A stretch of 64,000 nt of DNA from contig NZ_CP028897.1 of assembly GCF_003072645.1 (NCBI RefSeq), positions 943,658 to 1,007,657 of the forward strand, written 5' to 3'. The notes under the pieces were generated by a model that did not search any database, had not been told where the DNA came from, and saw only the letters and a program-made list of their open reading frames with translations. The position numbers were made by a program, and so were the translations under genes. The DNA comes from Dongshaea marina (GTDB lineage Bacteria; Pseudomonadota; Gammaproteobacteria; Enterobacterales; Aeromonadaceae). Shown piece after piece: positions 2,912-62,403 of the stretch; within the stretch, counting starts at the first letter, position 1; every line of letters begins with the position of its first letter.

Positions 2912-2948
2912 TAGAGTATGAGTGAAGGTCGGGTCTGGAAGAAAAAGG

Positions 2949-3633: not shown

Positions 3634-3700
3634 AATATCTCCTCAGAGGCCAGTAAAAACCGGCTCTAAGCTGTTTGAAGTGAATTTTCCAGCAATAAGA

Positions 3701-3726
3701 GGTCAGGCTGTGGATTCAGCCTGACC
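3701..3726 (-). terminator. Intercistronic hairpin between pilin and chaperone genes
   Basis: Perfect 10-bp stem (GGTCAGGCTG / CAGCCTGACC) with a six-base loop and no following T run on the minus strand. It lies between the major pilin stop and the chaperone start. Its place suggests a partial terminator or mRNA-stabilising hairpin that keeps pilin mRNA above chaperone and usher mRNA. That role is inference. Confidence 0.55.
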
Positions 3727-3898
3727 AAGATCACAACAGTAAGTAGAGAGGTGTGTAGTAGTTCGAAGAGTTAGATCTGGCCGCCGTCAACTTCCCAGGT
3801 AGCTTTAAAGGTTGCACTGACGGTTCCCACATAGGTTGCAGACGGCATCTCTGAAGCCTCAACATTGAGCCCTTGAGGATCTGTGAAGTTACTCAACC

Positions 3899-44955: not shown

Positions 44956-46461
44956 GTGCGGATCTCCACCCAGATGTTTTACGATCGCAGTGTAACCAGC
45001 GTGGTTAAACGCCAGGCTAATCTGAGTGAGCTGCAGACCCATCTCTCGGAGCAAAAAGAGGTGGTCCATGGCTCGGACGATCCTGTGGCGATTTCGGCGA
45101 TTCAGCGGTTGCGTCAGGATATCTCTGTCAGTGAAAAGCATATTCAAAATGGTGAACTGGCTGCCAACAGTAATGCGATTGAGGAAACCAGTATTGCTCA
45201 GGCGGTTAATCTGCTGCAGCGTTCCAGGGAGCTACTGGTTGCGGCAGGAAATGGTACCTACAACACAGATAACCGGGAGGCTCTGGCTACGGAACTTGAG
45301 CAGGTTCGAGAGGAATTGATCGGAGTTGCTAATACCCGGGATGCCAATGGCCAATATATCTTTTCCGGTTACGAGGTGGATACTCAGCCGTTTCAGGTCA
45401 ACGAGTTTGGTACCGTGGATTACCATGGTGATGATGGGGTTCGTAACTACCAGATTGGCCCTGGAGTAAAGATCTCAGGTAATGAGGCGGGTGATTACGC
45501 CTTCATGAATATTGCTACCGGAAACGGCACCTATCTTTCGAGCGTAGCTGATTCAAATCAGGGTTCCGGGGTTATTGATGAAGCCCAGGTGATTGATGAA
45601 ACGGTGCACTCAACCTTTTCCGGGAACAGCTACTCCATCTCAATGAATGAGCCCACTCCCGGGGCTGATATCGAGTATCGGGTGTATGGCATCAAGCAAA
45701 CGGCAACTTTTACCGGTTCGGCAACGGTGAAGATTGCCTCTTTGGATCCTACAGATGCGGGATTTGCCACACAACAGCCAACGGCACTTTATCCTGAGGC
45801 AAATGGCACGACTAATATCGTTTTTACTCAAACGGCCCCGAATACCTTTGATGTGATTGTGGGGGGAAATACAGCTGTTCCTCAATATGACTCTTCAAAT
45901 ACCAATCCCCAAACAGTTGTGGTTAATGGAGTCAGCCTGGAGATTTCGGGAACTCCAGTTACAGGCGACACCATGGAGCTGACCGCTTTTGTTGGGGCGA
46001 CTCAGTATGAAGAGAATCAAGATATCGAATTTAATGGCCTGAAAACTCAGATCAAAGGTAAACCCTTTGATAAAGATGTGATGTATTTGGAGCCAGCCAG
46101 TCAGCAGTCGGTTTTTGCAACGCTTCAGCAAGCGATCGCTGCACTGCGTATCCCTGGCGAAGGTGATGTGATCGAGGCAAAGATTGAGAATCAGCTCAAT
46201 ATGTCAAAGCTACAGGTTGATAGTGCCTTGGATCGGGTGAAAAACATTCGCTCCAGTGTGGGGGCTCGGCTCAACACTATAGAGAGGCAACGTGAGTCGA
46301 GTGAGGACTTCAAACTCACTTCACAAAAGGTGCTCTCTCAGCTCGAGGATCTGGATATGGCCGAAGCCATCTCTGAATTTCAGCTTGAGCTAACCTCTTT
46401 GCAGGTGGCTCAGCAAACCTTTGTGCAACTGCAAAATTTAAGCTTATTTAATTTTCTTTAG
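44956..46461 (+). CDS. flgL: Flagellar hook-associated protein FlgL (HAP3)
   Basis: Second junction protein. GTG start; N-terminus MRISTQMFYDRSVTSVVKRQANLSELQTHLSEQKEVVHGSDDPVAISAIQ, C-terminus ARLNTIERQRESSEDFKLTSQKVLSQLEDLDMAEAISEFQLELTSLQVAQQTFVQLQNLSLFNFL, both flagellin-like D0/D1. 501 residues, long for FlgL. Intact. Confidence 0.95.
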   Translation: MRISTQMFYDRSVTSVVKRQANLSELQTHLSEQKEVVHGSDDPVAISAIQRLRQDISVSEKHIQNGELAANSNAIEETSIAQAVNLLQRSRELLVAAGNGTYNTDNREALATELEQVREELIGVANTRDANGQYIFSGYEVDTQPFQVNEFGTVDYHGDDGVRNYQIGPGVKISGNEAGDYAFMNIATGNGTYLSSVADSNQGSGVIDEAQVIDETVHSTFSGNSYSISMNEPTPGADIEYRVYGIKQTATFTGSATVKIASLDPTDAGFATQQPTALYPEANGTTNIVFTQTAPNTFDVIVGGNTAVPQYDSSNTNPQTVVVNGVSLEISGTPVTGDTMELTAFVGATQYEENQDIEFNGLKTQIKGKPFDKDVMYLEPASQQSVFATLQQAIAALRIPGEGDVIEAKIENQLNMSKLQVDSALDRVKNIRSSVGARLNTIERQRESSEDFKLTSQKVLSQLEDLDMAEAISEFQLELTSLQVAQQTFVQLQNLSLFNFL

Positions 46462-46465
46462 GATA

Positions 46466-46482
46466 TGGCACACATTTCGCTT
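46466..46482 (+). promoter_or_regulatory. Sigma-54 promoter of the first flagellin gene
   Basis: TGGCACACATTTCGCTT: perfect TGGCAC, GC ten bases after GG, with C for T at the -12 element. 88 bases before the ATG. Confidence 0.7.
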
Positions 46483-46569
46483 GATCTGTGTGTGGTTAAA
46501 CAATCGACACTGTAATGGCAAGAGTTTGCCGCAGGCTGTCAAAACTGGAAGTTAAGTGAGGAACAAGTT

Positions 46570-48540
46570 ATGCCTCAAATTATTAACACCAATATCATGT
46601 CGCTCAATGCTCAGCGTCAACTAAATAAGTCGCAACTCAAGCAGAATATGGCTATGGAGCGACTCTCATCCGGCCTGCGGATCAACAGCGCTAAAGATGA
46701 TGCGGCAGGTCTTGCCATTTCAACCGGCATGGAATCGCAAATCCGAGGCCTAAACCAGGCGGTACGTAATGCGAACGACGGTATCTCCATGTCGCAGACT
46801 GCAGAGGGTGCGATGGATGAGATGTCCAACATTCTGCAGCGGATGCGTGAGCTGGCGATTCAGGCGGCTAATGATACCAACTCGGCGTCTAACCGGGCAT
46901 CCATTCAGAAAGAGATCGATCAGCTCTATGCTGAATTGGATCGTATCGCAGAGGTGACTCAGTTCAATGGGGTGAAGGTGCTGGATGGATCTGGTGGTTC
47001 GACAAGCCTACAAATAGGTGCAAACGCTGGAGAGAATCTCGCCTTTTCCATTGACGCTGTAACCACGACAGCCCTTAACCTGAATGCGGTCTCAGGAATT
47101 GGAGAGCTTAATGGTGGACGAGTGGATACAGGTGGTGCTGGGGCTGATAGTACAGTGACAGTTAATGGAGTCAAAATCAATTTTGCTGCAGGCGCAGCAA
47201 TGACTGCCATGGTTGAAGCCTTTAATACAGTAAAAGGTCTGACCGGAGTGACCGCGACCTCTTACAACGTGCTTGAGGGAACCAAAAACCAAAGCGGGGT
47301 GACCGATGGGACCTTCCAGATTAATAGTACGACGATCGGCGCGACTGGCTCAATGCAGGAGTTGATCGATACGATTAACCAGGAGGTCGGAGGGGTTACT
47401 GCAAAAATTGGTTCCGGAAACTCTTTGATTTTGAGCAATGATGATGGGGGAGGCATTGTTATTAATGCTGGTGGTGCTCAGATTGGGTTAGTCGATGATA
47501 TCTATGGTGGTTACCTCGCCTTGACCAGTCAGGATAACTCTGCAATTGAGATTGGCTTGACCAGCACCGGAGTAACCTCTGAATTAAATGAAATAGGCTT
47601 CAACCGGAGTACCGGCTCCGATCTGGTTGTGGGGGGAACCAATTCAGGTGTTATCTCTGCCATGGCGGCTGCGAGCAATCACGGCATTACTGCCTCTGAT
47701 GGTATTGTTATCAACGGTGTGAAATTAGGCGATGTTACCGGGAATTCAGCGGCGGACAAGGCGTTTGCGATTAATGCCCTTAGCTCTCAAACTGACGTCA
47801 CAGCTGCCGCGAGAACGGAACTTGATTTTAGCTTGAATATAAATACTGCCCAGGGCGCTAGTGCATTGACAATCAATGGTGTAGGTAGCATAACCTTATC
47901 CTTAGCGACCAGTCTGGACTCTGCAGTAGCGATTATTAATGCGGCTGGAATTGGTGGTTTGGTTGCTGAGGCCGATGCGAGCAGTGGTCAGGTCAAGCTG
48001 ATCTCAGCATCGGGTCAGGATATCAGCATTGTGAGTGGTAGTCTCCATTTCGAGGATCCGGCAGGCACGGGAATCGTCTCAGAGATAACCTACCGAGGAG
48101 CGATTACCTTGACCGGTCAGGATGGTAAGGATGTTGTGGTAACTAGCTCGGCTTCGGATGAAGCCGCAAAAGAAAGTGCTCTTGAAAAACTTGGATTGAG
48201 CGATCAGGGGGGGAACTCTACTGCCGTTGGAATTGGCTTGAGCGTGACGACGGTTGCTAATGCAGAGAATACTATTGAGCGAATCGATGCAGCACTTCAA
48301 CAGATCTCTGATACTCGGGCGAGCTTAGGTGCGATTCAGAACCGCTTAAACTCTACCATCTCTAATCTTGAGAATGTGTCTCAGAACTTGTCGGCGGCAA
48401 ACTCGCGAATTAAGGATGCGGATTTCGCGGCGGAGACCTCTGCCCTTAGTAAGGCGCAGATCCTCCAGCAGGCAGGTATCTCCATGCTGGCCCAAGCCAA
48501 TGCCAGCACTCAGAATGTACTATCGCTTCTTCAGGGATAG
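46570..48540 (+). CDS. Flagellin (first of two tandem genes)
   Basis: Filament subunit, 656 residues. Conserved D0/D1 ends: MPQIINTNIMSLNAQRQLNKSQ...MERLSSGLRINSAKDDAAGLAISTGMESQIRGLNQA at the N-terminus and NRLNSTISNLENVSQNLSAANSRIKDADFAAETSALSKAQILQQAGISMLAQANA at the C-terminus. The central D2/D3 region is large and rich in Ser, Thr and Gly, likely surface-exposed and the target of the glycosylation genes downstream. Sigma-54 promoter in front and its own terminator behind, like the core flagellin flaA of Vibrio. Shares a 240-base identical segment with the second gene. Confidence 0.97.
   Translation: MPQIINTNIMSLNAQRQLNKSQLKQNMAMERLSSGLRINSAKDDAAGLAISTGMESQIRGLNQAVRNANDGISMSQTAEGAMDEMSNILQRMRELAIQAANDTNSASNRASIQKEIDQLYAELDRIAEVTQFNGVKVLDGSGGSTSLQIGANAGENLAFSIDAVTTTALNLNAVSGIGELNGGRVDTGGAGADSTVTVNGVKINFAAGAAMTAMVEAFNTVKGLTGVTATSYNVLEGTKNQSGVTDGTFQINSTTIGATGSMQELIDTINQEVGGVTAKIGSGNSLILSNDDGGGIVINAGGAQIGLVDDIYGGYLALTSQDNSAIEIGLTSTGVTSELNEIGFNRSTGSDLVVGGTNSGVISAMAAASNHGITASDGIVINGVKLGDVTGNSAADKAFAINALSSQTDVTAAARTELDFSLNINTAQGASALTINGVGSITLSLATSLDSAVAIINAAGIGGLVAEADASSGQVKLISASGQDISIVSGSLHFEDPAGTGIVSEITYRGAITLTGQDGKDVVVTSSASDEAAKESALEKLGLSDQGGNSTAVGIGLSVTTVANAENTIERIDAALQQISDTRASLGAIQNRLNSTISNLENVSQNLSAANSRIKDADFAAETSALSKAQILQQAGISMLAQANASTQNVLSLLQG
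47694..47933 (+). repeat. 240-bp segment identical to 49846-50085 in the second flagellin gene
   Basis: The two segments match base for base, 2,152 bases apart, in the central variable part. Similarity continues on both sides with few changes. The ends of the genes differ at many silent sites. Confidence 0.95.
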
Positions 48541-48556
48541 TGATCTTCATGGTATT

Positions 48557-48585
48557 AAAGGGCAGCATTTGCTGCCCTTTTTCTT
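48557..48585 (+). terminator. Terminator after the first flagellin gene
   Basis: AAAGGGCAGC-ATTT-GCTGCCCTTT followed by TTCTT. Confidence 0.9.
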
Positions 48586-48619
48586 GTAAAACGCAGAGCC
48601 AAATAGGTTAAAAATTGAC

Positions 48620-48646
48620 TAAAGCTTCCTCAGCTATCGCCGATAA
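48620..48646 (+). promoter_or_regulatory. Sigma-28 promoter of the second flagellin gene
   Basis: TAAAGCTT, 11 bases, GCCGATAA: essentially the full consensus with exact spacing, 70 bases before the ATG. Confidence 0.92.
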
Positions 48647-48715
48647 GGAGGTATCAAAAGTCGCCGATCTGCAGTATTTCCTGGGTCGGAGTGTGTTGAG
48701 CATGAGGAGCTTATT

Positions 48716-50689
48716 ATGCCTTTCGTTGTAAACACCAATGTAATGTCGATCAATGCACAGCGTCAGCTGGGTAAATCGCAAATGATGCAAAACCAGGCGA
48801 TGGAGCGACTCTCCTCTGGTTTGCGGATCAACAGTGCTAAAGATGATGCGGCGGGTCTGGCGATCTCCACCGGGATGGAATCTCAAATTCGTGGCCTGAA
48901 TCAAGCGGCACGTAACGCTAACGATGGTATCTCCATGGCTCAGACCGCAGAGGGGTCTATGCAGGAGATGACCAACATCTTGCAGCGGATGCGTGAGTTG
49001 GCAGTTCAATCGGCCAACGATACCAACTCAGCTTCTAACCGGGCATCGATTCAAAAAGAGATCGATCAACTTTATGCTGAGCTGGATCGTATCGCCACCG
49101 TTACCCAGTTTAACGGGGTCAACCTGCTCGATGGCTCGAATTCTTCCACTAGCTTGCAGATTGGGGCAAATACTGGCGAGCGTCTCTCATTCTCTATTGC
49201 TGCTGCGACTACTGGGGCACTGAATCTGAACGCAGTGTCCGGTATCGGTGAGCTCAATGGAGGCCGGATTGATACTGCGGGTGCTGCTGCTGTTGATAAT
49301 GGTGATGTGACGGTCAATGGGGTAGCCATGTCTTTAACTGCTGGTGCTGCGATGTCACTGCACTTGGCCGCATTTAATGATGTGAAGGGCCTCAGTGGAG
49401 TTACTGCCACTGCTTATAACGTATTGGAAGGAACTGGTAACCAGACCGGGGTTACCGATGGAACATTTTCCATCAATGGTACTGTCCTTGCTGCCACCGG
49501 TTCAATGACTGAGCTAGTGGATAAGATTAATCAGGAGGTCGGAGGGGTTACCGCGAAAGTGGGGGCTGGTGACTCCCTGGTGCTGAGTAATGATGATGGC
49601 CAGTCGATTATCATTGATGCCGGTGGTGCGCAGATCGGATTGGTGAATGATACCTATGCTGGGTACCTTTCTTTGACCAGCCAGGACAACAGTGCTATTA
49701 CCATAACGACCAACTCAGTTGGTACCAATGATGATATTCAAACGTTTGGCTTCAACCGGAGTACCGGCTCCGATCTGGTTGTGGGGGGGACTAATTCAGG
49801 TGTTATCTCTGCCATGGCGGCTGCGAGCAATCACGGCATTACCAGCTCTGATGGTATTGTTATCAACGGTGTGAAATTAGGCGATGTTACCGGGAATTCA
49901 GCGGCGGACAAGGCGTTTGCGATTAATGCCCTTAGCTCTCAAACTGACGTCACAGCTGCCGCGAGAACGGAACTTGATTTTAGCTTGAATATAAATACTG
50001 CCCAGGGCGCTAGTGCATTGACAATCAATGGTGTAGGTAGCATAACCTTATCCTTAGCGACCAGTCTGGACTCTGCAGTAGCGATCATTAATGCAGCTGG
50101 CATTGGTGGTTTGGTTGCTGAAGCCGATGCGACCAGTGGTCAGGTTAAGCTGGTGTCTGCATCGGGTCAGGATATTAGTATTGTGAGCGGTAGCCTCCAT
50201 TTCGAAGATCCGTCAGGTACGGGAATCGTCTCAGAGATTACTTACCGAGGGGCGATTACCCTGACTGGTGTGGATGGTAAAGATGTCACTGTTTACAGCA
50301 CCGCGACCAGCGAGGCTCTCAAGGATACTTCTCTTGCCAAGCTTGGCTTGATTGATCAGGGTGGTAATGAGACAGCGGTTGGTACCGGGTTGAATGTCAC
50401 CTCGGTTGCCAATGCGGAGAACACTATTGAGCGGATCGATGATGCTCTCGTGACTATCTCAGAAAACCGGGCTGAGCTTGGTGCGATCCAGAATCGCCTG
50501 ACCTCAACCATCTCGAATCTTGAGAATGTCTCACAGAACCTAAGCGCAGCGAACTCTCGGATCCGGGATGCGGACTTTGCGTCTGAGACCTCATCTCTGA
50601 GTAAGTCGCAGATCTTGCAGCAGGCAGGTATCTCTATGCTGGCTCAGGCGAATGCCTCAGGTCAGAGTGTCCTGTCACTGCTCGGATAA
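48716..50689 (+). CDS. Flagellin (second of two tandem genes)
   Basis: 657-residue paralogue: MPFVVNTNVMSINAQRQLGKSQMMQNQAMERLSSGLRINSAKDDAAGL and QILQQAGISMLAQANASGQSVLSLLG. Controlled by a consensus sigma-28 promoter, unlike the first gene. It keeps the same large central domain; part of it is identical in DNA to the first gene. GAGGAGC ribosome site. Followed by a strong terminator. Confidence 0.97.
   Translation: MPFVVNTNVMSINAQRQLGKSQMMQNQAMERLSSGLRINSAKDDAAGLAISTGMESQIRGLNQAARNANDGISMAQTAEGSMQEMTNILQRMRELAVQSANDTNSASNRASIQKEIDQLYAELDRIATVTQFNGVNLLDGSNSSTSLQIGANTGERLSFSIAAATTGALNLNAVSGIGELNGGRIDTAGAAAVDNGDVTVNGVAMSLTAGAAMSLHLAAFNDVKGLSGVTATAYNVLEGTGNQTGVTDGTFSINGTVLAATGSMTELVDKINQEVGGVTAKVGAGDSLVLSNDDGQSIIIDAGGAQIGLVNDTYAGYLSLTSQDNSAITITTNSVGTNDDIQTFGFNRSTGSDLVVGGTNSGVISAMAAASNHGITSSDGIVINGVKLGDVTGNSAADKAFAINALSSQTDVTAAARTELDFSLNINTAQGASALTINGVGSITLSLATSLDSAVAIINAAGIGGLVAEADATSGQVKLVSASGQDISIVSGSLHFEDPSGTGIVSEITYRGAITLTGVDGKDVTVYSTATSEALKDTSLAKLGLIDQGGNETAVGTGLNVTSVANAENTIERIDDALVTISENRAELGAIQNRLTSTISNLENVSQNLSAANSRIRDADFASETSSLSKSQILQQAGISMLAQANASGQSVLSLLG
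49846..50085 (+). repeat. 240-bp segment identical to 47694-47933 in the first flagellin gene
   Basis: Second copy of the identical central flagellin segment. Confidence 0.95.
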
Positions 50690-50714
50690 GTCAGGAGGAA
50701 TTTTTAAAGTAAGG

Positions 50715-50743
50715 AAGCTCCCCGGGGAAACTCGGGGAGCTTT
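50715..50743 (+). terminator. Terminator after the second flagellin gene
   Basis: AAGCTCCCCG/CGGGGAGCTT stem with an eight-base loop, then TT; only a short T run. Confidence 0.75.
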
Positions 50744-50766
50744 AGGCTAGAAGAGAGGGGGAGATT

Positions 50767-51132
50767 ATGAGCCAGGAGCTTGAAGGTAGCCGCAGTGTAC
50801 TGCAGCAGACATCACCGGCAGAGCGAGCCTCACAGCCCCAAATGCCTAAACCAGATGCCAGGAATGAGGAGGTTAGGGATAATGTACAGCAATCGCTAGC
50901 TGAACTTGATCCTCAGGCAGTGCGTGAGACAATGGAGACACTAAATGCTCATGTACAGCTGATGCAACGGCAAATCAGCTTTTCGGTGGATGAGTCCAGC
51001 GGGCGTCAGGTGATTATGGTGTTTGATAAAAATACCGGAGAGGCAATAAAGCAGATCCCTTCGGAGGATTTGCTGCAATTGGCACGAAACTTGGACAAAG
51101 TAGTTGGGCTATTATTTAGTAGTCAGGTGTAA
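50767..51132 (+). CDS. flaG: FlaG family protein
   Basis: 121 residues. C-terminal FlaG domain: LNAHVQLMQRQISFSVDESSGRQVIMVFDKNTGEAIKQIPSEDLLQLARNLD. In Vibrio and Campylobacter FlaG affects filament length. Lies between flagellin and fliD, its usual place. GAGAGGGGGAG before ATG. Confidence 0.92.
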   Translation: MSQELEGSRSVLQQTSPAERASQPQMPKPDARNEEVRDNVQQSLAELDPQAVRETMETLNAHVQLMQRQISFSVDESSGRQVIMVFDKNTGEAIKQIPSEDLLQLARNLDKVVGLLFSSQV

Positions 51133-51195
51133 ATCTGGATAAAGAGGATTTTAGATTTCCAATTGCTGAGTGATCTGAGTCCTGAGGAGGTGCTT

Positions 51196-53244
51196 ATGCC
51201 TGTAGTAACATCTACTGGTCTTGGATCCGGGTTAGACATAAACAATATTGTCACTAGTCTAGTGGAGGCCGAACAGGTTCCTGTTCAGCAGAAGATTGAT
51301 AAAGATGCTCTTGAGGCCACCGAACAGATCTCGGCTCTGGGGCTACTCAATAGTTCACTCTCCTCTTTCAAAAGCTCTTACTCTACCCTTTCTTTGAGCT
51401 CTAGTTTCAGCGCAGCTTCTATCTCCAATAGCCACACAAATCTTCTTTCGGTTACCACTGATGTTGGGGCCGATCTTGGTAGTTATGATCTCAGCATTGA
51501 GAAGCTTGCACAAACTCATACGATTGCTTCAGCTAGTTTCACCAGTCCAAATGATGTGATTGGCACAGGAGAGATGACAGTTCGTTTCGGTACCTATAAT
51601 GCGACAGATGATAGTTTTACTCTCAATGCTGATGAGACGGTACAAACAATTACCATAGATTCGACGAATAACACTCTTTCGAGCATGCGGGATCATATCA
51701 ATGAGGGAAATTATGGGGTCAAAGCTTCGGTGATCAATGATGGGAGCGGTTATCGTTTGGTGTTTGAGAGCAGCAAGAGTGGAGCTGATTATGCTCTGGA
51801 GATCACCACAGACGACGATGATGGCACTGATACCAATAATGCGGGCTTGTCACAGCTGGTGTTTAGTGCATCGGACAAAAACATGACAAAAACTGTGACT
51901 GCACAAGATGCTGAACTGGTGATGAATGGTCTGACGGTTACCCGCTCCGATAATACTGTGACGGGATTGATTGAAGGTGTAACTCTGAACCTACTGGACT
52001 CAAGTCCCGGAGAGTCTATCAAGCTAGTTATTAGCAGGGATTCCAGTTCGGTTGAGGATAAAATACGCACTCTTGTTGATAGCTACAATACCGTCTATGC
52101 CCAAATATATGAGCTTACAAAGTACACGGGAACCAATGAGGCCAATGGTGTATTGATTGGTGATGCTACAGTGAGAGGCATCCAGAGTACCTTACGCTCG
52201 ATTCTTAATTCCGAAGTTGATCTGTCTGGTAGCGATATACACACTTTTGCAGATCTCGGGATCATCACCACTCGGGAAGGAACCCTTGAAATTCAGGAGT
52301 CAACCTTTACCTCTGTCTTGAGTAACAATATTAATGATGTTGCGGACTTCTTCACTGCAGCTGGGCGGACGACGGACTCACAGGTTGATTTTTTCAGTAG
52401 TAACTCGCTTACGGAGGCAGGAACCTATGCGATTGAGGTCACACAACTGGCGACACAGGGTGTGCTGACTGGTACTGTCGCATTAGGTGCAAACACAACA
52501 ATAGATGCTGACAATGATACATTTAAAGTTCGTATTGATGGGATTTTATCCAATGAGATCAGCTTGCTTCAGGGAACATATACACAATCTGAACTTATTG
52601 CCGAGATACAGTCAAAGATAAATTCGGACTCAACTTTACTCGATAAAGGAGTCAGCGTCTCTGTGACTCTTGATGGTAGTAATCAGCTAGTGATTACCTC
52701 TGATGCCTATGGGAGTTCATCTTCGGTCGCGTTTACCGAGGTGGATACAGACATGGCAGCGGAGTTAGGACTATCAGTCGCATCGGGAACAGAGGGAGTC
52801 GATGTTGAAGGCACGATAGATGGACAAACAGCTTTAGGTGATGGTCAATTTCTCCTCTCTGAGAGTGGAAACTCCTCAGGAATTAAAGTTCAGGTGACAG
52901 GGGGAGCAACAGGGGCTCGGGGAACGGTCACCTACTCTCCGGGAATGGTTGACCTTCTCAACACCACACTGGATGCTATGATTGATAAGTCGATCTCTTC
53001 CGGTTCCGGAGATATAGATCTGAGTGAAGGTATTATCGATACCAAGATTGACTCCCTGTATAAAAAGTTGCAGGAGCTGGACAAGAAAGATGAAGATCTT
53101 AAGTTCAGGATGAGCAAGCTGGAAGCTCGCCTTTTTGAGCAATTTAATGCCATGGATATTGTTGTTTCTCAATTGGCAGGTACATCTAGCTTTCTCCAGG
53201 GAGCCTTAGAGGCTTTGCCTGGATATGCAAAGGATAAGAAGTAA
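51196..53244 (+). CDS. fliD: Flagellar filament cap protein FliD (HAP2)
   Basis: Caps the filament and helps flagellin polymerise. N-terminus MPVVTSTGLGSGLDINNIVTSLVEAEQVPVQQKID; C-terminus LSEGIIDTKIDSLYKKLQELDKKDEDLKFRMSKLEARLFEQFNAMDIVVSQLAGTSSFLQGAL. 682 residues, long for FliD, with two beta-rich inserts. ATG 51196 has GAGGAGGTGC before it; the frame upstream to 51163 is not used. Followed by a terminator. Confidence 0.95.
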   Translation: MPVVTSTGLGSGLDINNIVTSLVEAEQVPVQQKIDKDALEATEQISALGLLNSSLSSFKSSYSTLSLSSSFSAASISNSHTNLLSVTTDVGADLGSYDLSIEKLAQTHTIASASFTSPNDVIGTGEMTVRFGTYNATDDSFTLNADETVQTITIDSTNNTLSSMRDHINEGNYGVKASVINDGSGYRLVFESSKSGADYALEITTDDDDGTDTNNAGLSQLVFSASDKNMTKTVTAQDAELVMNGLTVTRSDNTVTGLIEGVTLNLLDSSPGESIKLVISRDSSSVEDKIRTLVDSYNTVYAQIYELTKYTGTNEANGVLIGDATVRGIQSTLRSILNSEVDLSGSDIHTFADLGIITTREGTLEIQESTFTSVLSNNINDVADFFTAAGRTTDSQVDFFSSNSLTEAGTYAIEVTQLATQGVLTGTVALGANTTIDADNDTFKVRIDGILSNEISLLQGTYTQSELIAEIQSKINSDSTLLDKGVSVSVTLDGSNQLVITSDAYGSSSSVAFTEVDTDMAAELGLSVASGTEGVDVEGTIDGQTALGDGQFLLSESGNSSGIKVQVTGGATGARGTVTYSPGMVDLLNTTLDAMIDKSISSGSGDIDLSEGIIDTKIDSLYKKLQELDKKDEDLKFRMSKLEARLFEQFNAMDIVVSQLAGTSSFLQGALEALPGYAKDKK

Positions 53245-53332: not shown

Positions 53333-55354
53333 ATGGACCCGATGCGCCTGGATATAGAAACAAAGATTCTACGAGGTACTTTTGTCAAAAATTTGGCTGT
53401 TCTGAAAAAGCACATGCCCCCTCTCTTTGAGCTTTATAAAGATTTTGAACCCCAAAAGACTTTTCTCACCTTTGATCATAATGATGAGCTTAATCTGGTT
53501 TCAGATGGGGGGCTTGTTTATGAAGATCGGGCGCAGCAACAAAGCTGCGAGCAGGCAGAACTCTATCTTAAGCGACCAATGAGAAGCCGTTACTTACCTA
53601 CCTATGAAGAGGAAGGTTTTGAGCACTATTTGCATATTCAGTTGATGGAGGAGCTTTTTTCTAGGCGCGAAGAGGAAATTGGCTTCCCGGCTGCAGAAGA
53701 ATTTAATGAATTTGACACTCATAAGCTTATCGACTTCTTATGTATGATTGGATCGGGGCTGGGATACCATATTCAGAGGATTTTTGATTCTGTGGATGTG
53801 AACTATTTTTTCCTTTATGAGCCAGATCCTGAGTGTTTTTATGCATGTTTGCATGTAATTGATTGGCAGAAAATTATTGAACACTGTAATGCTAGAGGGG
53901 GAACAGTCACTGTGACTGTTGGTGGGAGTAAGTTTAGTTTCATGAACAATGTTCATAGCTGCCTTAGTCAGCGGGGGACCTTTCATGTTTGTCGGATAGG
54001 CTTATATCGGCATTACCATAGTGAAGATACCGATGAGTCTTTTGAGTATTTTCATGAATTGGCTCATCGACTATCAAGTGGTTGGGGCTTTTTTGAAGAT
54101 GAAATTTTGAGCACGCAAAATACTTTTGCAAATATTAAGATTAACATCCCACTACTCAAGAATAATGTCTATTCAGGTAAGCTGAAAAAATATCCAGTAT
54201 TTATTATAGGCAATGGACCATCACTTGATTACTCGATTGATTACATAAAAAATAACCTGAAAGGGGCTATCGTTATTTCCGGTGGGACAGCGACCCGGAG
54301 CCTACTTGAAAATGGTATTGTTCCGGATATTCATGTTGAGGTTGAGAGAACCTATCATGTAGCAAAGTGGCTGGAAAATATTAAGGAACAGAATACATTG
54401 AGTCGTATTCCTTTGGTGGCATTTAATAATGTTCACCCAGAAGCGATGCAGATGTTTGAACGCTCATATATGATTCTAAAACCCCATGACTCTGGAAATG
54501 AACTCTTGTGTCAGCTGCTACCAAAGAATAAATATAATCAAATGTATTATAGTAACCCAACAGTTACTAACTTTGCTTTAGCTCTCGCCTTTGAAATGAA
54601 AATGACTGATATCTACCTATTTGGGACTGATTTTGGTTATAAAGACAAAAAGTATCATCACTCCAGAGATAGTGCCTATTATGATGAAAGCTGGGATGGG
54701 TATACTGAGGAGCATGGTGGCCAATTACGTTCTAAGGCTAATTTTGGAGATGATATTATTTTTACTGAAAGTGCTTATGAAAGCTCTCGGGCAATAGTTG
54801 AGATGTTGATTGAGAGGCAAAGATATATAAAGAATAGGGTCTTTAAAGTTCATAATACATCAGATGGCGCAAAAGTTGAAGGTGCCGAACCAGCTACAAT
54901 AGATTCACTACCATCACTTGATATTATTTCAAATAAGCAAGATTTGATATTTAAATTTCTTGACAAGAGCTTCTCTAATAAAGAACTTGTAGGTACAGAC
55001 ATGGAGATCCTCATAAAAGAACATATCGATAGAATGAGGGGGATGGTCAAAATATTATTTTCTGAAATGCCTCAAGTGACAGACATTCAGTCTCTTATCA
55101 ATTTTTTCCAGAGACAATACGCAATGGTAATCCCTTTGATGGATATTCCAGAAGATAAAGCATACTATAGGTTTTTGAAAGGGACATTAAACTATATTCA
55201 GACGACAATTTTAACCAATGCTTACTTTTATCATGGGGATGAGCTATCAGATTATAGCAATTGGGCTTTGTTGAGGTTTAAGAAGCATTGTGAGGATTTG
55301 GTTGAAAAGATTTCTTCAACATACCATACCCCACAAAATAAGCGCTGGTTCTGA
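53333..55354 (+). CDS. Maf-type motility accessory factor, probable flagellin nonulosonate transferase
   Basis: 673 residues. Central MAF_flag10 (DUF115) domain, about residues 280-490: YPVFIIGNGPSLDYSIDYIKNNLKGAIVISGGTATRSLLENGIVPDIHVEVERT, then SNPTVTNFALALAFEMKMTDIYLFGTDFGYKD. Maf proteins in Aeromonas, Campylobacter and Clostridium transfer pseudaminic or legionaminic acid to Ser/Thr of flagellin. Codon use is AT-richer than the flagellar structural genes, suggesting transfer. Directly upstream of the sugar cassette, 11 bases before legB. Confidence 0.88.
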   Translation: MDPMRLDIETKILRGTFVKNLAVLKKHMPPLFELYKDFEPQKTFLTFDHNDELNLVSDGGLVYEDRAQQQSCEQAELYLKRPMRSRYLPTYEEEGFEHYLHIQLMEELFSRREEEIGFPAAEEFNEFDTHKLIDFLCMIGSGLGYHIQRIFDSVDVNYFFLYEPDPECFYACLHVIDWQKIIEHCNARGGTVTVTVGGSKFSFMNNVHSCLSQRGTFHVCRIGLYRHYHSEDTDESFEYFHELAHRLSSGWGFFEDEILSTQNTFANIKINIPLLKNNVYSGKLKKYPVFIIGNGPSLDYSIDYIKNNLKGAIVISGGTATRSLLENGIVPDIHVEVERTYHVAKWLENIKEQNTLSRIPLVAFNNVHPEAMQMFERSYMILKPHDSGNELLCQLLPKNKYNQMYYSNPTVTNFALALAFEMKMTDIYLFGTDFGYKDKKYHHSRDSAYYDESWDGYTEEHGGQLRSKANFGDDIIFTESAYESSRAIVEMLIERQRYIKNRVFKVHNTSDGAKVEGAEPATIDSLPSLDIISNKQDLIFKFLDKSFSNKELVGTDMEILIKEHIDRMRGMVKILFSEMPQVTDIQSLINFFQRQYAMVIPLMDIPEDKAYYRFLKGTLNYIQTTILTNAYFYHGDELSDYSNWALLRFKKHCEDLVEKISSTYHTPQNKRWF

Positions 55355-55365
55355 GGGAGGAGCGT

Positions 55366-56370
55366 GTGAATAATCGAATATTGGTGACAGGAGCTGATGG
55401 CTTCATTGGATCTCACCTGATCGAAATGTTGGTTTCTCAGGGGTATTCTGTCAGAGCTTTTTGTATGTATAACTCTTTTGATCGTCGTGGGTGGTTGGAT
55501 ACACTGAGTCCCGAGTTTTTGGAGCATATCGAGTTTTTTATGGGGGACATCCGGGATCCAAACGGGGTTCGTCAGGCGATACAGGGGGTCGATGCTGTAT
55601 TGCACTTGGCAGCATTGATTGCCATTCCTTTCTCTTACCATTCGCCGGATAGTTATGTTGATACGAACATCAAAGGAACTTTAAATGTGCTACAAGCTGC
55701 GCGTGATCTTGAGGTGCAGCGAGTTGTTCACACCTCTACAAGTGAGGTATATGGCTCAGCTTGTTATGTGCCTATTGATGAAAAGCATCCCCTTCAGGGA
55801 CAATCTCCTTATTCTGCCAGTAAGATAGGTGCCGATCAGTTAGCTCTTTCCTTTTATCGCTCCTTTGAGCTTCCCCTGGTCATCGCTCGTCCATTTAATA
55901 CTTATGGGCCGAGGCAATCTACTCGGGCCGTGATCCCTACCATTATTTCTCAGTTAGCGATGAATCCAAATGAATTAAGGCTTGGTGCTATTTCACCGAC
56001 CCGAGACTTCAATTATGTTCTGGATACTGTTCGCGGTTTCGAAGCACTCTTAAGGGCTGATGATCAAGTACTGGGTGAGGAGATAAACCTGGGGAGTGGT
56101 TTTGAAGTCAGTATTGAAGAAACCGTCAATATGCTATGTGATCTAATGGGAGTATCACCAAAAATCGTAACAGAAGAGCAGCGTTTGCGTCCGGATAAAA
56201 GTGAGGTTAATCGACTCTTTTGTGATAACAGAAAGGCCTTGAAGCTCTTGGATTGGCAACCTGAGTTCGCTGGTGTTGATGGATTTCGTAAAGGGCTAGA
56301 GCACACAGTTCATTGGTTTCAGGAGGCTAAAAACCTGCAGTTATATCGTTTCGGGGACTATACCCTATGA
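55366..56370 (+). CDS. legB: LegB-like nucleotide-sugar 4,6-dehydratase
   Basis: Extended SDR enzyme. NAD-binding VTGADGFIGSH at residues 7-17, YSASK catalytic pair near residue 145, TSTSEVYG, and ARPFNTYGPRQS. 334 residues. It would convert GDP- or UDP-GlcNAc to the 4-keto-6-deoxy sugar, the first dedicated step of the legionaminic acid route. GTG start after GGGAGGA; overlaps legC by four bases. Could also be named a general UDP-GlcNAc 4,6-dehydratase. Confidence 0.85.
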   Translation: MNNRILVTGADGFIGSHLIEMLVSQGYSVRAFCMYNSFDRRGWLDTLSPEFLEHIEFFMGDIRDPNGVRQAIQGVDAVLHLAALIAIPFSYHSPDSYVDTNIKGTLNVLQAARDLEVQRVVHTSTSEVYGSACYVPIDEKHPLQGQSPYSASKIGADQLALSFYRSFELPLVIARPFNTYGPRQSTRAVIPTIISQLAMNPNELRLGAISPTRDFNYVLDTVRGFEALLRADDQVLGEEINLGSGFEVSIEETVNMLCDLMGVSPKIVTEEQRLRPDKSEVNRLFCDNRKALKLLDWQPEFAGVDGFRKGLEHTVHWFQEAKNLQLYRFGDYTL

Positions 56371-57545
56371 CTCCTGAGAATAAGAGTAGAGAGCTTGCAG
56401 CTCGAATTCGGCACGCATCGGGTTGCCACAACAGTGTCATGCCACTTCATGAACCTATGTTTATCGGTAATGAGTGGCACTATGTGAAAGAGTGCCTGGA
56501 TACGGGATGGGTTTCTTCCCAGGGTAAGTTTGTTGATCAATTTGAAAGGGATCTTGAGTCTTACACGGGAAGTAACCATGCTATCGCTGTAATGAATGGT
56601 ACGGCAGCACTTCACCTGGCTCTACTAGGTGCCGGTGTGAAGGCAGGAGATGAGGTATTAACGCCATCCCTTAGCTTTGTCGCAACGGCCAATGCCATCT
56701 GCTATTGCGGGGCAACCCCTCATTTTGTGGATGTTGAAAGTCTGAATTTAGGCCTGGATGCCACCTCTTTGGATGAGTATCTGAACTCTGCCACAGAGCT
56801 TAGAGATGGCACTTGCTACAACTGTTCCACTGGCCGGGTTATAAGAGCCTTGGTTGTTATGCATACCTTTGGGATACCCTCTGAAATGGAGGCTATCCAA
56901 AAGCTATGTAAGCAGTACTCACTTGCATTGGTTGAAGATGCTGCAGAGGGGCTAGGTAGTCATTATCAGGGGCAGCATGTTGGGACATTTGGTGTCACTG
57001 CCGCACTTAGTTTCAATGGTAATAAAATCATGACTACAGGTGGAGGCGGCGCTGTTTTGTGTCAGGGAAAGGTGCTTGCTGAGAGGCTTCATCATCTTTC
57101 GACGACAGCGAAGCTTAAGCATCCATGGCAGTATCATCATGATGCAGTTGGATATAATTATCGGATGCCAAACCTTAATGCAGCCTTAGGGTGTGCTCAG
57201 CTTGAGCAGATGCCGGAAATATTAAGACGCAAACGCACTCTTCACGAGAGTTATCAGCAGTATTTTCCCTGGAGGGGGATTGAGTTATTAAAAGCTTCTG
57301 GTGACAGAGAATGGAACTACTGGCTAATGGGATTAAGCCTACCTTCTGATTATAAATTAGAAATAGTCTTAGAAGAATTGAATTCACAAGGGATCCTTGC
57401 TCGACCAGTCTGGCAGCCTCTGCATCAACTTCCGATGTTTGAGGTCTCACCTCGAATGGATTTAAGTTGCACAGAGCGGCTAGCTAGTTGCATTATCAAT
57501 ATACCAAGTAGTGCAGGGGTCATGGATGATGCAAAAAATTTTTAA
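56367..57545 (+). CDS. legC: LegC-like PLP-dependent sugar aminotransferase
   Basis: DegT/DnrJ/EryC1 family. 392 residues. Starts HEPMFIGNEWHYVKECLDTGWVSSQGKFVDQFE, PLP-binding lysine in LSFNGNKIMTTGGGGAV (about residue 219), and EDAAEGLGSHYQGQHVG. Adds the C4 amino group to the LegB product. ATGA overlap with legB shows a tight operon. Confidence 0.88.
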   Translation: MTPENKSRELAARIRHASGCHNSVMPLHEPMFIGNEWHYVKECLDTGWVSSQGKFVDQFERDLESYTGSNHAIAVMNGTAALHLALLGAGVKAGDEVLTPSLSFVATANAICYCGATPHFVDVESLNLGLDATSLDEYLNSATELRDGTCYNCSTGRVIRALVVMHTFGIPSEMEAIQKLCKQYSLALVEDAAEGLGSHYQGQHVGTFGVTAALSFNGNKIMTTGGGGAVLCQGKVLAERLHHLSTTAKLKHPWQYHHDAVGYNYRMPNLNAALGCAQLEQMPEILRRKRTLHESYQQYFPWRGIELLKASGDREWNYWLMGLSLPSDYKLEIVLEELNSQGILARPVWQPLHQLPMFEVSPRMDLSCTERLASCIINIPSSAGVMDDAKNF

Positions 57546-58707
57546 AGTTACTGTTGTGACGGGCGGCAGAGCCGATTATGGTTTGCTGCGTCCCTTACTA
57601 AAAGCCTTAAAAAAACACCCTAAGTTTGAATTACAGCTCGCCGTTACCGGAGCTCATTGTTGCCAAAGTTGGGGGGATAGCTTGTCAACTATTCATAGCG
57701 ATGGTTTTCATATTGCAGCTGAAGTTGATATGCAACTTGCCAGTGATACCCCTGTTGGAATGAGTAAGTCTTTAGGACTTGGTGTGCTCGGAATGAGCGC
57801 AGCTTTGTCTCGGTTAAAACCAGATGCACTAGTTCTTCTTGGTGATCGTTATGAAATTTTTGCAGCAGCTCAAGCCGCTCTTTTTCTTAAAGTCCCTGTT
57901 GTTCATCTTCATGGAGGAGAGCTGAGTCAAGGAGCTGTGGACGACTCTATTCGTCACTGTATCTCTAAGATTGCAAGCCTTCACTTTTGCTCAACTGAGG
58001 AGTATCGACAGCGCCTTCTTCAGTTAGGGGAAGCGGTGGAGGCTGTTTACGATACCGGCCCTCTGGCTCTGGATAATATACGAGAACTTAAGTTGTTGAC
58101 ACGAGATGAGTTGGTGGCTGAACTGGGCTCTGCATTCTCTCGTCCGTATTTGCTCATGACATTGCACCCTGAGACAGCTACAAACCATGATCCAAGAGTA
58201 CTTTCTGAACTGCTCTGTGAGACGCTAAGAAATGAATGGCCGCATCAGATCATTATGACATCCAGCAACTCTGACGCCGGAGGACAGCAAATAGAGGGGG
58301 TACTAGAGAGTTATGTTCAGAAGTATCCCGAGCAGTTTGTACTATATAAGCATCTGGGAGTACTACGATATATGTCTGCTGTAAGTTGTGCGAAAGCAGT
58401 TGTTGGCAACTCATCAAGTGGACTCCTTGAAGTTCCACTCTTAGGAACTCCGACACTGGATATTGGAGAGCGTCAAAGAGGGCGAACAGCACCGATTTCC
58501 GTTATTCGCGCTTGCGCTACAGCTCGGGAGATCGTTAATGGGTTGGAAAGAGCGCTGTCTAAATCTCATCAGGAGCTATCAAAGCATCATTGCCATACCT
58601 ATGGTGAGGACTCTGTTGCCGAACGTATGATCAACGTTTTACTTAGCCACCTTCAGCAGGGACTAGGCAAGCTTCCTTTTGTGGACAGGATGGAAAGAAG
58701 GGTTTAG
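57526..58707 (+). CDS. legG: LegG/NeuC-like hydrolysing UDP/GDP-sugar 2-epimerase
   Basis: Releases the nucleotide and epimerises at C2 to give the free 6-deoxy-mannose-type amino sugar. TGGRADYGLLRPLLKAL at the N-terminus, LVLLGDRYEIFAAAQAALFLKVPVVHLHGGELSQGAVDDSIRH, and VGNSSSGLLEVPLLGTPTLDIGERQRGR near the C-terminus. ATG 57526 or 57529 fits the family start; the frame extends to GTG 57511. It overlaps the legC end. No acetyltransferase (LegH) gene lies between, so that step must be encoded elsewhere. Confidence 0.87.
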   Translation: MMQKIFKVTVVTGGRADYGLLRPLLKALKKHPKFELQLAVTGAHCCQSWGDSLSTIHSDGFHIAAEVDMQLASDTPVGMSKSLGLGVLGMSAALSRLKPDALVLLGDRYEIFAAAQAALFLKVPVVHLHGGELSQGAVDDSIRHCISKIASLHFCSTEEYRQRLLQLGEAVEAVYDTGPLALDNIRELKLLTRDELVAELGSAFSRPYLLMTLHPETATNHDPRVLSELLCETLRNEWPHQIIMTSSNSDAGGQQIEGVLESYVQKYPEQFVLYKHLGVLRYMSAVSCAKAVVGNSSSGLLEVPLLGTPTLDIGERQRGRTAPISVIRACATAREIVNGLERALSKSHQELSKHHCHTYGEDSVAERMINVLLSHLQQGLGKLPFVDRMERRV

Positions 58708-58846
58708 TGGACACTTTGGACAAGAGGCTCGAAAAAAAGTATGCACAGGGGGGGGTAATAAATCTTTGTATTTTGAAGTGCAAAGGTGAAAGGGTAAAGG
58801 GTTCATGTTAGGCTCAAAATGTAGCTAGCATCCAGGGAGAGAGTGC
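58708..58846 (+). other. Intergenic gap with a G8 tract
   Basis: 139 bases between legG and ptmE in an otherwise overlapping operon. It contains eight G at 58748-58755 and ends in CCAGGGAGAGAG, the ptmE ribosome site. A neuB/legI gene is not present here. The G tract could alter expression if its length varies; that is inference. Confidence 0.5.
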
Positions 58847-59899
58847 ATGAAGCGCTGGCAGAACAGCTTTATTGATCCAGAGGCGAGTATTGAGCGAGCT
58901 ATCCAAATTATCGATAAAAGTGGCTTGCAGCTTGTGATGGTGGTTGATACTGAGCATCGGCTATTAGGGGTTATCACGGATGGTGATGTGCGGCGCGCGC
59001 TCTTGCAACACATTCCTTTAACCGAGCCTGTAACTGCAATTATGCAGTGTTCCCCAGTGACAGCTTCTCCTGAACTTTCTGAAAATGAGTTGCGTAAGCG
59101 CATGCTACACCATGTGATCGATCAGCTTCCTCTGGTTGACTCAGATGGAAAAGTGGTTGGCTTGCAAACATTACAGCACTTAAGTAAGCCGCAGGAACTT
59201 GATAATACGGTTATTCTAATGGCTGGAGGTCAAGGGACGAGATTGCGCCCTCTTACTGAGGCTTGTCCTAAACCTATGCTTCGGGTTGGTGTAAAGCCTC
59301 TTCTTGAGCTCATTATTGATAATTTTATCGAGCATGGATTCCATAACTTTTATATCTCTGTAAATTACCTTGCTAAAGTGGTTAAGGATTACTTTGAAGA
59401 TGGTAGTGAATGGGGCATCAATATACATTATATTGAGGAAAATGAGCCTCTCGGGACAGCAGGTTCCTTAGGATTAATTCCTAAGAATGATCTTCAACTG
59501 CCAGCAATTGTGATGAATGGTGATATTCTTACTCAAGTGGATTTTACTGCTCTTCTAAAATTTCACCGTGAACATAAATCTTCGGCGACTATGGGCGTTC
59601 GTGAGTGGAAATATCGAGTTCCTTATGGCGTATTGGAAGCAGATAATCAGAAAATTAAGCGGATTGTTGAAAAGCCTCTGCAGCATTTTTTTGTTAATGC
59701 AGGTATCTATGTTTTAGATCATGAAGCTTTTTCCAGAATTAGTGGTGAAGACTACTTGGATATGCCCGATCTTTTTAGCCAACTCATCGAAGACAATAAG
59801 ACAACGACTATGTTTCCCATTAGAGAGTACTGGTTGGATGTAGGGCAGCACCAAGATTTTGAACAGGCAAATAGAGATATTTTTGAGGCCAGATTTTGA
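58847..59899 (+). CDS. ptmE: PtmE-like CBS-domain sugar-1-phosphate nucleotidyltransferase
   Basis: 350 residues. Two CBS motifs in the first 115 residues (AIQIIDKSGLQLVMVVDTEHRLLGVITDGDVRRAL), then a nucleotidyltransferase domain with VILMAGGQGTRLRPLTEACPKPMLRVG and VMNGDIL. In Campylobacter PtmE makes GDP-GlcN for the legionaminic route. Overlaps the next gene by four bases (TTGA). Confidence 0.87.
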   Translation: MKRWQNSFIDPEASIERAIQIIDKSGLQLVMVVDTEHRLLGVITDGDVRRALLQHIPLTEPVTAIMQCSPVTASPELSENELRKRMLHHVIDQLPLVDSDGKVVGLQTLQHLSKPQELDNTVILMAGGQGTRLRPLTEACPKPMLRVGVKPLLELIIDNFIEHGFHNFYISVNYLAKVVKDYFEDGSEWGINIHYIEENEPLGTAGSLGLIPKNDLQLPAIVMNGDILTQVDFTALLKFHREHKSSATMGVREWKYRVPYGVLEADNQKIKRIVEKPLQHFFVNAGIYVLDHEAFSRISGEDYLDMPDLFSQLIEDNKTTTMFPIREYWLDVGQHQDFEQANRDIFEARF

Positions 59900-60861
59900 C
59901 GACGCAAGTTCTGCTCCTTGGATTTGGCAGTGTAGCTCAAAAGCACATTGAAGCTTTAGGCGAGCTTTTGTCTGATGTAAAGTTTGCTGTTTGGTGTCGT
60001 CCGGGAAAGTTACGCTCGCACCCCAAGGTGGTGCATTTTTTCTATGATGCTAAGCAAGCTATTGCCTGGCAGCCTCATCTTATCATTGTGACAACGCCCT
60101 CATCGATTCGACTCGAATTGATTACAGAACTCGCTTCTTTGGGTTGCCCAATGCTTATAGAGAAGCCACTAGCTGACAGCCTATCCCAAGCACAAGAGAT
60201 TACCTGTTTACTGGCAAAAAAAAATAGCTTCTATCTGGTCGCTTATCAGCTTAGGTTTTTACCCAGTTTTCTCAAGCTACAGCAGTGGCTTACTCTTTTG
60301 GGACAGCTCTATCATGTTAGGCTGGATGTTGGGCAGTACTTGCCTCACTGGCGCCCAGGCAAGCCTGTTATCGAGATGGTTTCAGCGTCATTAGAGCTTG
60401 GTGGTGGGGCCTTGCTTGAGCTGAGTCATGAACTGGATCTGATGATTAACCTCATTGGAAAGCCTTCATCGGTCTTTGCAAAAAAGGCTCCTCCGAGTCA
60501 CTTAGCAATTGAAGTGGAAGAGTGTGTTGAGTTGCTTTGTAGTTATCCTCAAGGACCATTGGTGAGTGTCCACTTAGATATGCTCCGCTATTCTCCGTCC
60601 CGTAATAGTACATGGCTAGGCGAAAATGGACAGATTTGCTGGGATCTATTAAGTGATAGCCTGACATTTTATGATCGAACTGGTGAGCAGGTTGATTCAT
60701 TCAATGGAGGGATGGATCCGGGGAGAGCACGCAAAGCTTTACTGGAATCTTTTATTAACCAATCTTCTCGGGGTTGTAATTTGGAACAGGGGTGTGAAGT
60801 CATGCATCTCATTGAGGCTTGTAAAGAGTCGTTGCGATACAACAGGGAGATAGTTTTGTGA
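59896..60861 (+). CDS. ptmF: PtmF-like Gfo/Idh/MocA oxidoreductase
   Basis: 321 residues from TTG 59896. Rossmann VLLLGFGSVAQKHIEAL at residues 5-21, IEKPLADSLSQAQ (EKP motif near 90), and GGALLELSHELDLMINL (H in the substrate site). PtmF supports the precursor supply in the Campylobacter Ptm/legionaminic cluster. Start overlaps the ptmE stop, end overlaps legF. Confidence 0.82.
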   Translation: MTTQVLLLGFGSVAQKHIEALGELLSDVKFAVWCRPGKLRSHPKVVHFFYDAKQAIAWQPHLIIVTTPSSIRLELITELASLGCPMLIEKPLADSLSQAQEITCLLAKKNSFYLVAYQLRFLPSFLKLQQWLTLLGQLYHVRLDVGQYLPHWRPGKPVIEMVSASLELGGGALLELSHELDLMINLIGKPSSVFAKKAPPSHLAIEVEECVELLCSYPQGPLVSVHLDMLRYSPSRNSTWLGENGQICWDLLSDSLTFYDRTGEQVDSFNGGMDPGRARKALLESFINQSSRGCNLEQGCEVMHLIEACKESLRYNREIVL

Positions 60862-61579
60862 GTGGTGAAGAAAGTACGCTCGCTTTTATTTTCGCCAGGG
60901 GGGGTCTAAAGGGATTCCTCGTAAAAATATCCAGCTTTTAGCTGGTAAGCCTCTTATTTCCTATAGCATTGAGGCTGCATTGAATCACCCTCAGATAGAG
61001 CAGGTGATTGTCTCTACAGATAGCCAGGAGATTGCGCAAGTTGCTTTGGAGTGGGGAGCGCAAGTTCCTTTCATCCGCCCTGCAGAGTTGGCAACAGATA
61101 CTGCGCCAGAGTTAGAAGCCTGGCAACATGCAATACGTTTTTGCCAGACTCAGCCTCAATGGCATAGCTTCTCAACCTTTATTTCCTTACCAGCAACAGC
61201 ACCTCTTCGTTCTGAGGATGATGTAACCCGATGCTTGGAGTTATTTGGTCAGAGCAACTTTGATTTGGTTGTCACCGGCTCTATAGCCTCCAGGAGTCCC
61301 TGGTTTAATATGGTAAAGAAAAAGGATGATGGCGCTATAGAGTTGGTGCTTCCTAGCCAACATACACGGCGACAAGATACGCCTCAGGTTTTTGACCTAA
61401 CGACGGTAGCCTATGTTTCAAGCCCGCAGTATATCCTAAATAGCCAGAATGTAATGCAAGGAAGGATTGGCTTGGTAGAGATTCCAAGAGAGCGGGCGAT
61501 CGATATTGATGAGCCCCTGGATTTTGAGATTGCAGAATGCTTGCTGGCAAGGAGGATGTGTGAGCAAGACACTAGATAA
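60858..61579 (+). CDS. legF: LegF/NeuA-like CMP-nonulosonate cytidylyltransferase (frameshift at a G tract)
   Basis: Activates the finished nine-carbon sugar with CTP. GTG at 60858 starts ESTLAFIFARGG, then the frame is lost. One extra G in the seven-G run at 60898-60904 gives [30 protein letters not shown], the exact cytidylyltransferase signature, and a 240-residue protein. Later motifs: STDSQEIAQVALEWGAQVPFIRPAELATDTA and ATAPLRSEDDV. The tract may be sequence error or a contingency site. It overlaps ptmA by 20 bases. Confidence 0.87.
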
Positions 61580-62348: not shown

Positions 62349-62403
62349 GCGCAGTTATTGCATTATTCTTTGTACTCTTACTTTTTAAGGATGAAGAAGA
62401 TCT

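Follow-up and report, generated by a model that had tools for sequence, protein, structure and literature searches.

Two flagellin genes that lie in tandem and in direct orientation in the Dongshaea marina genome raise the question of how a pair of paralogs can be identical in the middle of the coding sequence and strongly diverged at both ends. The window analyzed here is the whole 64,000-nucleotide stretch that contains them (contig NZ_CP028897.1, positions 943,658 to 1,007,657 of the forward strand), and positions below refer to it. Gene 1 (46570..48540, plus strand) is an open reading frame (ORF) of 656 amino acids with the C-terminus LLQG, and gene 2 (48716..50689, plus strand) encodes 657 amino acids and ends in LLG. 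Both are flagellins, with matches over the cut-off to Flagellin_N (E-values of 2.5e-49 and 1.2e-47 for genes 1 and 2, respectively) and Flagellin_C (5.8e-27 and 1.6e-26). The pattern reflects a real, recent, domain-confined homologous copy between long-diverged flagellins, that is, a known process in an unusual position. Very probably, an old tandem FlaA/FlaB pair exchanged sequence by intragenomic homologous recombination, whereby most of the second outer domain was overwritten.

The sequence-only reading had reported a 240-nucleotide block that is identical in the two genes, silent sites included, and the coordinates of this exact repeat (47694..47933 in gene 1 and 49846..50085 in gene 2, both on the plus strand) proved accurate, with the match being maximal in both directions. 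The broader statement that the middles are identical needs refinement. The block is real and lies within a recently homogenized tract of 338 nucleotides with 5 base differences (47596..47933 and, at an offset of 2152, 49748..50085, plus strand), which itself belongs to a 536-nucleotide homogenized island with sharp drops at 47596 and 48132. The rest of the island is an older or partly eroded homogenized stretch of 198 nucleotides (47934..48131 in gene 1; 50086..50283, distinguished by its silent divergence, in gene 2; plus strand). The silent divergence (dS, from Nei-Gojobori-type counts with the Jukes-Cantor correction) is 0.04 in the recent tract and 0.48 in the older stretch, compared with 1.95 in the 5' flank (46570-47595) and 2.14 in the 3' flank (48132-48540), a signature of intragenomic gene conversion or concerted evolution that also bears out the earlier observation of many silent differences in the coding ends. 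The first outer domain, located 5' of the island, shows silent divergence like that of the ends.

In the codon alignment of the two genes, 328 of the 655 codons differ, and the longest identical run spans 79 codons, a length that was reached in none of 10,000 shuffles of the codon differences, where the longest run was 21. At positions with identical residues (excluding M and W), the two genes share the codon in 107 of 110 cases in the recent tract; the corresponding figures are 113 of 251 for 46570-47595 and 50 of 105 for 48132-48540. The density of differing codons changes stepwise along the genes, from 56 of 84 (47344-47595) to 4 of 111 (47596-47930), 22 of 66 (47931-48131) and 35 of 46 (48132-48270). 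The recent tract and the older stretch differ significantly (Fisher p 1e-7), as do the older stretch and the region 48132-48540 (Fisher p 2e-4). Given the difference between the recent and older zones, a single event cannot account for both, and at least two age layers in the island are supported. The base composition of the tract (GC content at third codon positions of 0.48 and 0.49) is like that of both genes and points to neither as the donor.

In predicted structural models, two outer domains (hereafter domains I and II) lie between the D0/D1 helices, at approximately residues 194-332 and 370-530, and are weakly similar to each other (27% sequence identity, E-value 0.005). The confidence of the full-length model is modest (predicted local distance difference test score of 64.8 and predicted template modeling score of 0.39), and the corresponding values for the outer-domain model are 68.6 and 0.66. 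The predicted fold is of the D2/D3 outer-domain type, with domain-model matches to Helicobacter pylori FlaA (E-value 8e-8), the Campylobacter jejuni filament (5e-5) and the D2/D3 portion of Pseudomonas aeruginosa FliC (2e-4); the best solved matches of the second domain include chains of both H. pylori FlaA and FlaB. The island corresponds to residues 343-520, beginning in a low-confidence linker and taking in most of the second, D2/D3-like domain, and the recent tract corresponds to residues 343-454, that is, the linker and the first part of that domain. Between species, the ends remain the conserved part of the protein: gene 1 shares 0.88-0.90 amino acid identity with its class A relatives in the N-terminus and 0.38-0.57 in the outer domains. 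The inversion of the usual pattern is limited to the comparison of the two paralogs.

The assignment of the two genes to different flagellin classes was derived from comparison with a genus of the same order but another family (g16), in which 22 of the 24 genomes have a match to gene 1, and with the metagenome-assembled genome NORP200. Only frames of at least 450 amino acids with both flagellin ends were included, and rows with identical ends were merged; 17 class A and 21 class B genes were typed by their C-termini (LLQG/LLQQ or LLG, respectively), and the sequence DCout160 was excluded when class-separating sites were defined. Five positions in the ends distinguish the classes (80% or more each), and gene 1 carries the A state at 5 of 5 and gene 2 the B state at 5 of 5; only three of these positions are free, 656 being the class-defining one and 655 being linked to it.

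The upstream regions give a parallel picture. Gene 1 is preceded by a sigma54-like site (46466..46481, plus strand, at -104) with 2 mismatches, and gene 2 by a predicted sigma28-like promoter (48620..48646, plus strand, at -96) with 1 mismatch, in both cases relative to the consensus. By itself, the sigma54-like site of gene 1 is not above chance expectation in the window. Across the relatives, a sigma54-like site was found in all 18 class A upstream regions, gene 1 included (17 of them at -104 to -118), and a sigma28-like site in none, whereas all 22 class B upstream regions of at least 250 nucleotides, including that of gene 2, contain a sigma28-like site and one of the 22 a sigma54-like site. 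Window genes are part of these counts, DCout160 is counted as B, one of the 23 B rows, with 76 nucleotides upstream, is left uncounted, and the rows are related and hence not independent trials. The background rates for the two kinds of sites are 2.2% and 1.0% in shuffled upstream regions and 14.1% and 2.5% in random stretches of the window. The A-then-B gene order is also found in NORP200 and in the g16 genomes G193, G217, G313 and G295. Thus, as in these relatives, gene 1 appears to be of the FlaA type with a sigma54-like site and gene 2 of the FlaB type with a sigma28-like site.

To compare inheritance by gene region, we used the seven genomes with full-length A and B genes and calculated d, the within-genome A-B identity minus that with the best same-class ortholog from another lineage. 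In the N-terminus, the A-B identity within a genome is below that with the best same-class ortholog in 7 of 7 genomes (d from -0.02 to -0.06; -0.04 in the window), and in domain II it is above in 7 of 7, with d of 0.43 in the window (bootstrap 1.00), 0.11 in NORP200 (0.98) and 0.02-0.07 in the five g16 genomes. The C-terminus is neutral (-0.01 to 0.05), and domain I is pair-specific in the window (0.12, bootstrap 1.00) and mixed elsewhere (-0.06 to 0.07). In the g16 and NORP200 pairs, the proportion of silent differences (pS) is high in every region (0.52-0.96), so that any copying there must be old. Universal recent homogenization in the relatives was not found, the five g16 pairs, including the tandem one of G193, being silently diverged throughout. 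A broader reading of these patterns is that this group of polar flagellin pairs would have two inheritance regimes, with the promoter and the filament-core ends inherited by class (early sigma54-type and late sigma28-type) and the outer domains shared within each genome through repeated copying. A filament of two differently timed subunits would then display one surface, maintained by selection for uniformity (glycan, phage or neighbor contact). We advance this extension tentatively and consider it rather doubtful.

The proposed chain of events is as follows. Homologous recombination between the paralogs would have overwritten the second outer domain of one with that of the other. The 5' and 3' parts of the pair are about 70% identical, and sequences at this level are too diverged for efficient RecA-type exchange. 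Because of this, and because the 98.5% identical block is a good substrate, recombination would now be feasible almost only inside the island, which would persist by being copied anew from time to time. The outcome would be two subunits with different switches and end residues and one common outer domain. If the pair works like that of Shewanella putrefaciens, the filament base would consist of the product of gene 1 and the remainder of that of gene 2.

The sequence-only reading called this recent gene conversion of the surface domain. That the copying is recent holds for the tract, the only part in which silent sites were erased; conversion as such is indistinguishable from two successive unequal crossovers. 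In such a duplication-deletion cycle, an unequal crossover would briefly create an array of three genes, one of them a hybrid, from which a further crossover would delete one copy, leaving the patch. The tandem direct arrangement with its 2152-nucleotide offset fits this scenario, as does the presence of at least three same-strand flagellins in 17 listed flagellin loci, and tandem paralogs elsewhere recombine via homology blocks, gaining and losing copies (PMC9484751). The cycle requires, however, two exchanges with both outer points within one gene, and the ORF list shows no trace of a third copy, either between the two genes or next to them, so that we regard it as possible but somewhat improbable. 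Explanations that dispense with copying fare far worse. Collapse of the repeat during assembly is unlikely, as judged from the assembled sequence: the pair sits in a 5,032,832-base contig of a two-contig genome, with all five 16S genes on that contig, each repeat copy keeps its own flanks with private differences directly beside the exact block, and a collapse would not yield graded layers of divergence. A short-read consensus placed in both genes is accordingly very improbable. Nucleotide-level selection, through an RNA structure or an internal element, could hold the block, whose identity includes silent sites, unchanged without copying, but nothing in favor of this was found. The g16 orthologs vary freely at silent sites of the tract region, however (pS 0.56-0.74). 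Among 37 other long flagellins, positions with the same residue as gene 1 also have its codon in 467 of 1440 cases within the recent tract; the counts for domain I and the ends are 860 of 2644 and 2155 of 5638, respectively, and the rate is 0.32 in the tract compared with 0.38 in the ends. Since the relatives vary at these sites, the tract is not silently frozen, and constraint of this kind is rejected as an extremely remote prospect. A phase-variable or cassette-switched flagellin is rejected as well: there are no inverted repeats of 20 nucleotides or longer in 45500-52000, and genome-wide the copied domain has three matches, the third only 45% identical, with no further close copy.

The age of the pair is a harder matter. 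Recent duplication of the whole gene is rejected by the dS of about 2 outside the tract. The alternative that deserves weighing is a single duplication in this lineage, followed by copying of the middle, rather than an ancient A/B pair. Several results weigh against the history that we prefer, and those from the trees of the ends, which place gene 2 outside class B, speak for this alternative. In the tree with 41 rows, gene 2 falls beside DCout160 and gene 1 (support 97/79, then 95/88). In the reduced tree, from which DCout160 (a long branch) and three rows with LLQQ (L209, L210 and L216) are omitted, gene 2 is left out of a clade that unites the remaining 21 B genes (96/97), and the two window genes group together weakly (76/86). 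The six nearest A and the six nearest B sequences are distinguished by 22 sites in the ends; gene 2 carries the B state at 12 of these, the A state at 7 and another state at 3. Moreover, the five g16 genomes, which represent one genus, show only a weak excess in domain II (bootstrap 0.68-0.91), and in one of them, G277, the second part of domain II taken alone has no excess (0.46 vs 0.48 and 0.52); the genus-level search covered one genome, that of the window itself; and conversion and a double unequal crossover give an identical product.

Constraining gene 2 into class B makes the tree 5.5 log-units worse, which is not rejected (approximately unbiased test, p 0.36), and gene 1 has 17 A, 3 B and 2 other states at the same 22 sites. 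The trees of the outer domains unite the window pair for both domain I (100/100), a further point for a duplication in this lineage, and domain II (100/99). The NORP200 pair is likewise united for domain II (100/98), and in the tree of the ends its two genes are separated by a branch supported at 96/97. A lineage-specific duplication is at odds with the gene-specific sigma54-like and sigma28-like sites and end residues common to the relatives, with the A-then-B order in the five other genomes and with the N-terminus tracking the gene class, and we consider it unlikely; even then, later copying of the tract would be required, given a dS of 0.04 compared with about 2. Nevertheless, in view of the mosaic end states and the tree position of gene 2, some stretches of its ends may be products of ancient exchange as well, or the pair may have duplicated more recently than we propose. 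The 7 A states in the ends of gene 2 may hint at A-to-B copying; no ortholog is close enough for polarizing the direction.

A separate mismatch concerns L209, L210 and L216 of g16, which have A-type C-termini (LLQQ) and sigma54-like sites and yet group with class B in the end tree, perhaps as a result of an older exchange of ends.

How common such tracts are was assessed in a survey of same-strand flagellin pairs, where a pair was considered tract-bearing if it contained a 40-codon window with pS of 0.05 or less. This is a convenience sample that consists of loci found by similarity and stretches from the family of the window and from g16, with some loci overlapping or sharing a genome (L104/L144 and L045/L046), so the shares are not population frequencies; 13 loci of the window genome that repeat the genes of the window, L131 or L132, or contain single genes, were omitted, and L131 and L132 themselves were kept. 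Tracts are present in 18 of the 186 pairs (14 of 80 loci), located mainly in the ends in 12 pairs, mainly in the middle in 5 (the window, L064, L152, L151 and L060) and over the whole gene in 1 (L071). Hence the premise that the ends are normally the conserved part stands as a tendency and not as a rule, and uniqueness of the pattern to the window is rejected. Among the 18, the window pair has the highest divergence outside the tract (pS 0.64). The 18 do not include the tandem pairs of G217, G313 and G295. Both patterns coexist in one array, L151 (2160-6116), where a tract located mainly in the middle is common to genes 1 and 2 and an N-terminal one to genes 2 and 3. The adjacent flagellins of Rheinheimera maricola (L071, 5973-6966 and 7286-8279) are nearly identical across all 322 codons, which is a very recent duplication or whole-gene copying.

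Campylobacter flagellin pairs are highly similar over most of the gene, unlike the window pair, in which exchange is limited to one outer domain and the remainder is near silent saturation. The two cases are alike in that two flagellins under different sigma factors, a control that is only predicted here, exchange sequence within a genome. Recombination between Campylobacter flaA and flaB (Harrington 1997, Wassenaar 1995, Meinersmann and Hiett 2000) is cited in PMC5126078 and PMC8535712, where a link of flaA/flaB variation to glycosylation sites is also suggested. The fla genes of Alteromonadales are listed in PMC6053082 among 26 recurrently concerted prokaryotic genes and, like the window pair, are gammaproteobacterial tandem flagellins that are closer to each other than to orthologs; the diverged ends of the window pair, in contrast, exclude recent duplication of the whole gene. 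The closest parallel in position is Pseudoalteromonas shioyasakiensis L064 (genes at 5979 and 8516), where a low-divergence tract of 88 codons is restricted to the middle of the gene (85 of the 98 codons there, compared with 3 of 140 N-terminal and 0 of 85 C-terminal ones; pS 0.55 in the remainder). Unlike in the window, these flagellins are short (323 amino acids) with a small middle, and the pair occupies the first and third positions in an array of three genes. In S. putrefaciens, according to the available text of PMC6299084, flaA lies upstream of flaB, the flaA promoter is FliA-independent and that of flaB FliA-dependent, and both flagellins are likely glycosylated. The order of a FlaA-type gene followed by a FlaB-type gene and the predicted promoter types in the window match this arrangement, whereas the S. 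putrefaciens flagellins are short (about 28.5 kDa) and that text describes no domain copying. Among the titles listed in literature searches, which covered a minority of subscription papers, none announces copying that is restricted to a single outer domain in two diverged flagellins; such a case may nevertheless be in print. Flagellin copying itself is already known in other bacteria, and the middle-of-gene position is a minority pattern, not a unique one.

Filaments of multiple flagellins are common, and why several genes are kept is debated. In the window pair, the parts that are kept separate (promoter and end residues) and those that are shared (one outer domain) can be read from the sequence; the pair also serves as a warning that whole-flagellin trees mix histories.

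Downstream of the pair, the region 53333-63717 begins with a Maf-type glycosyltransferase that matches the Maf_flag10 profile (53333-55354). Next come LegB, LegC and NeuC-type proteins, a nucleotidyltransferase whose N-terminal part is weakly CBS-like, an oxidoreductase, a PseF-like cytidylyltransferase, a short-chain dehydrogenase/reductase whose weaker matches include PtmA, and an amidotransferase of the WbuX type. The LegB, LegC, NeuC/NnaA and WbuX matches are over the cut-off, and those to PseF, PtmA and the nucleotidyltransferase type are below it. By inference from these matches, this is a legionaminic acid-type flagellin modification locus, so that the filament is likely glycosylated. 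No result links the copied domain or its homogenization to glycans, so that the shared glycan surface suggested by the sequence-only reading is a conjectural purpose, and the tract is only slightly richer in serine and threonine (26 of 112 residues) than the first outer domain (31 of 149).

Within the family of D. marina (75 genomes), among the matches listed outside the window genome, the alignments begin at the N-terminal end and extend no farther than residue 442; the nearest full-length relatives come from another family of the order (f12) and from NORP200. Transfer of the pair between lineages, or its loss from many of them, is possible. The D. marina genome further encodes a third long flagellin (L131, about 2055-4001; G000 C1:1465054-1467000), 43% identical overall and 45% in the copied domain, and, about 21 kb beyond it, a tandem of two short flagellins (L132), an arrangement suggestive of a second flagellar system. 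This other tandem pair shows the usual pattern, with the ends closer than the middle (proportions of nonsilent differences of 0.08, 0.33 and 0.02 in the N-terminus, middle and C-terminus, respectively).

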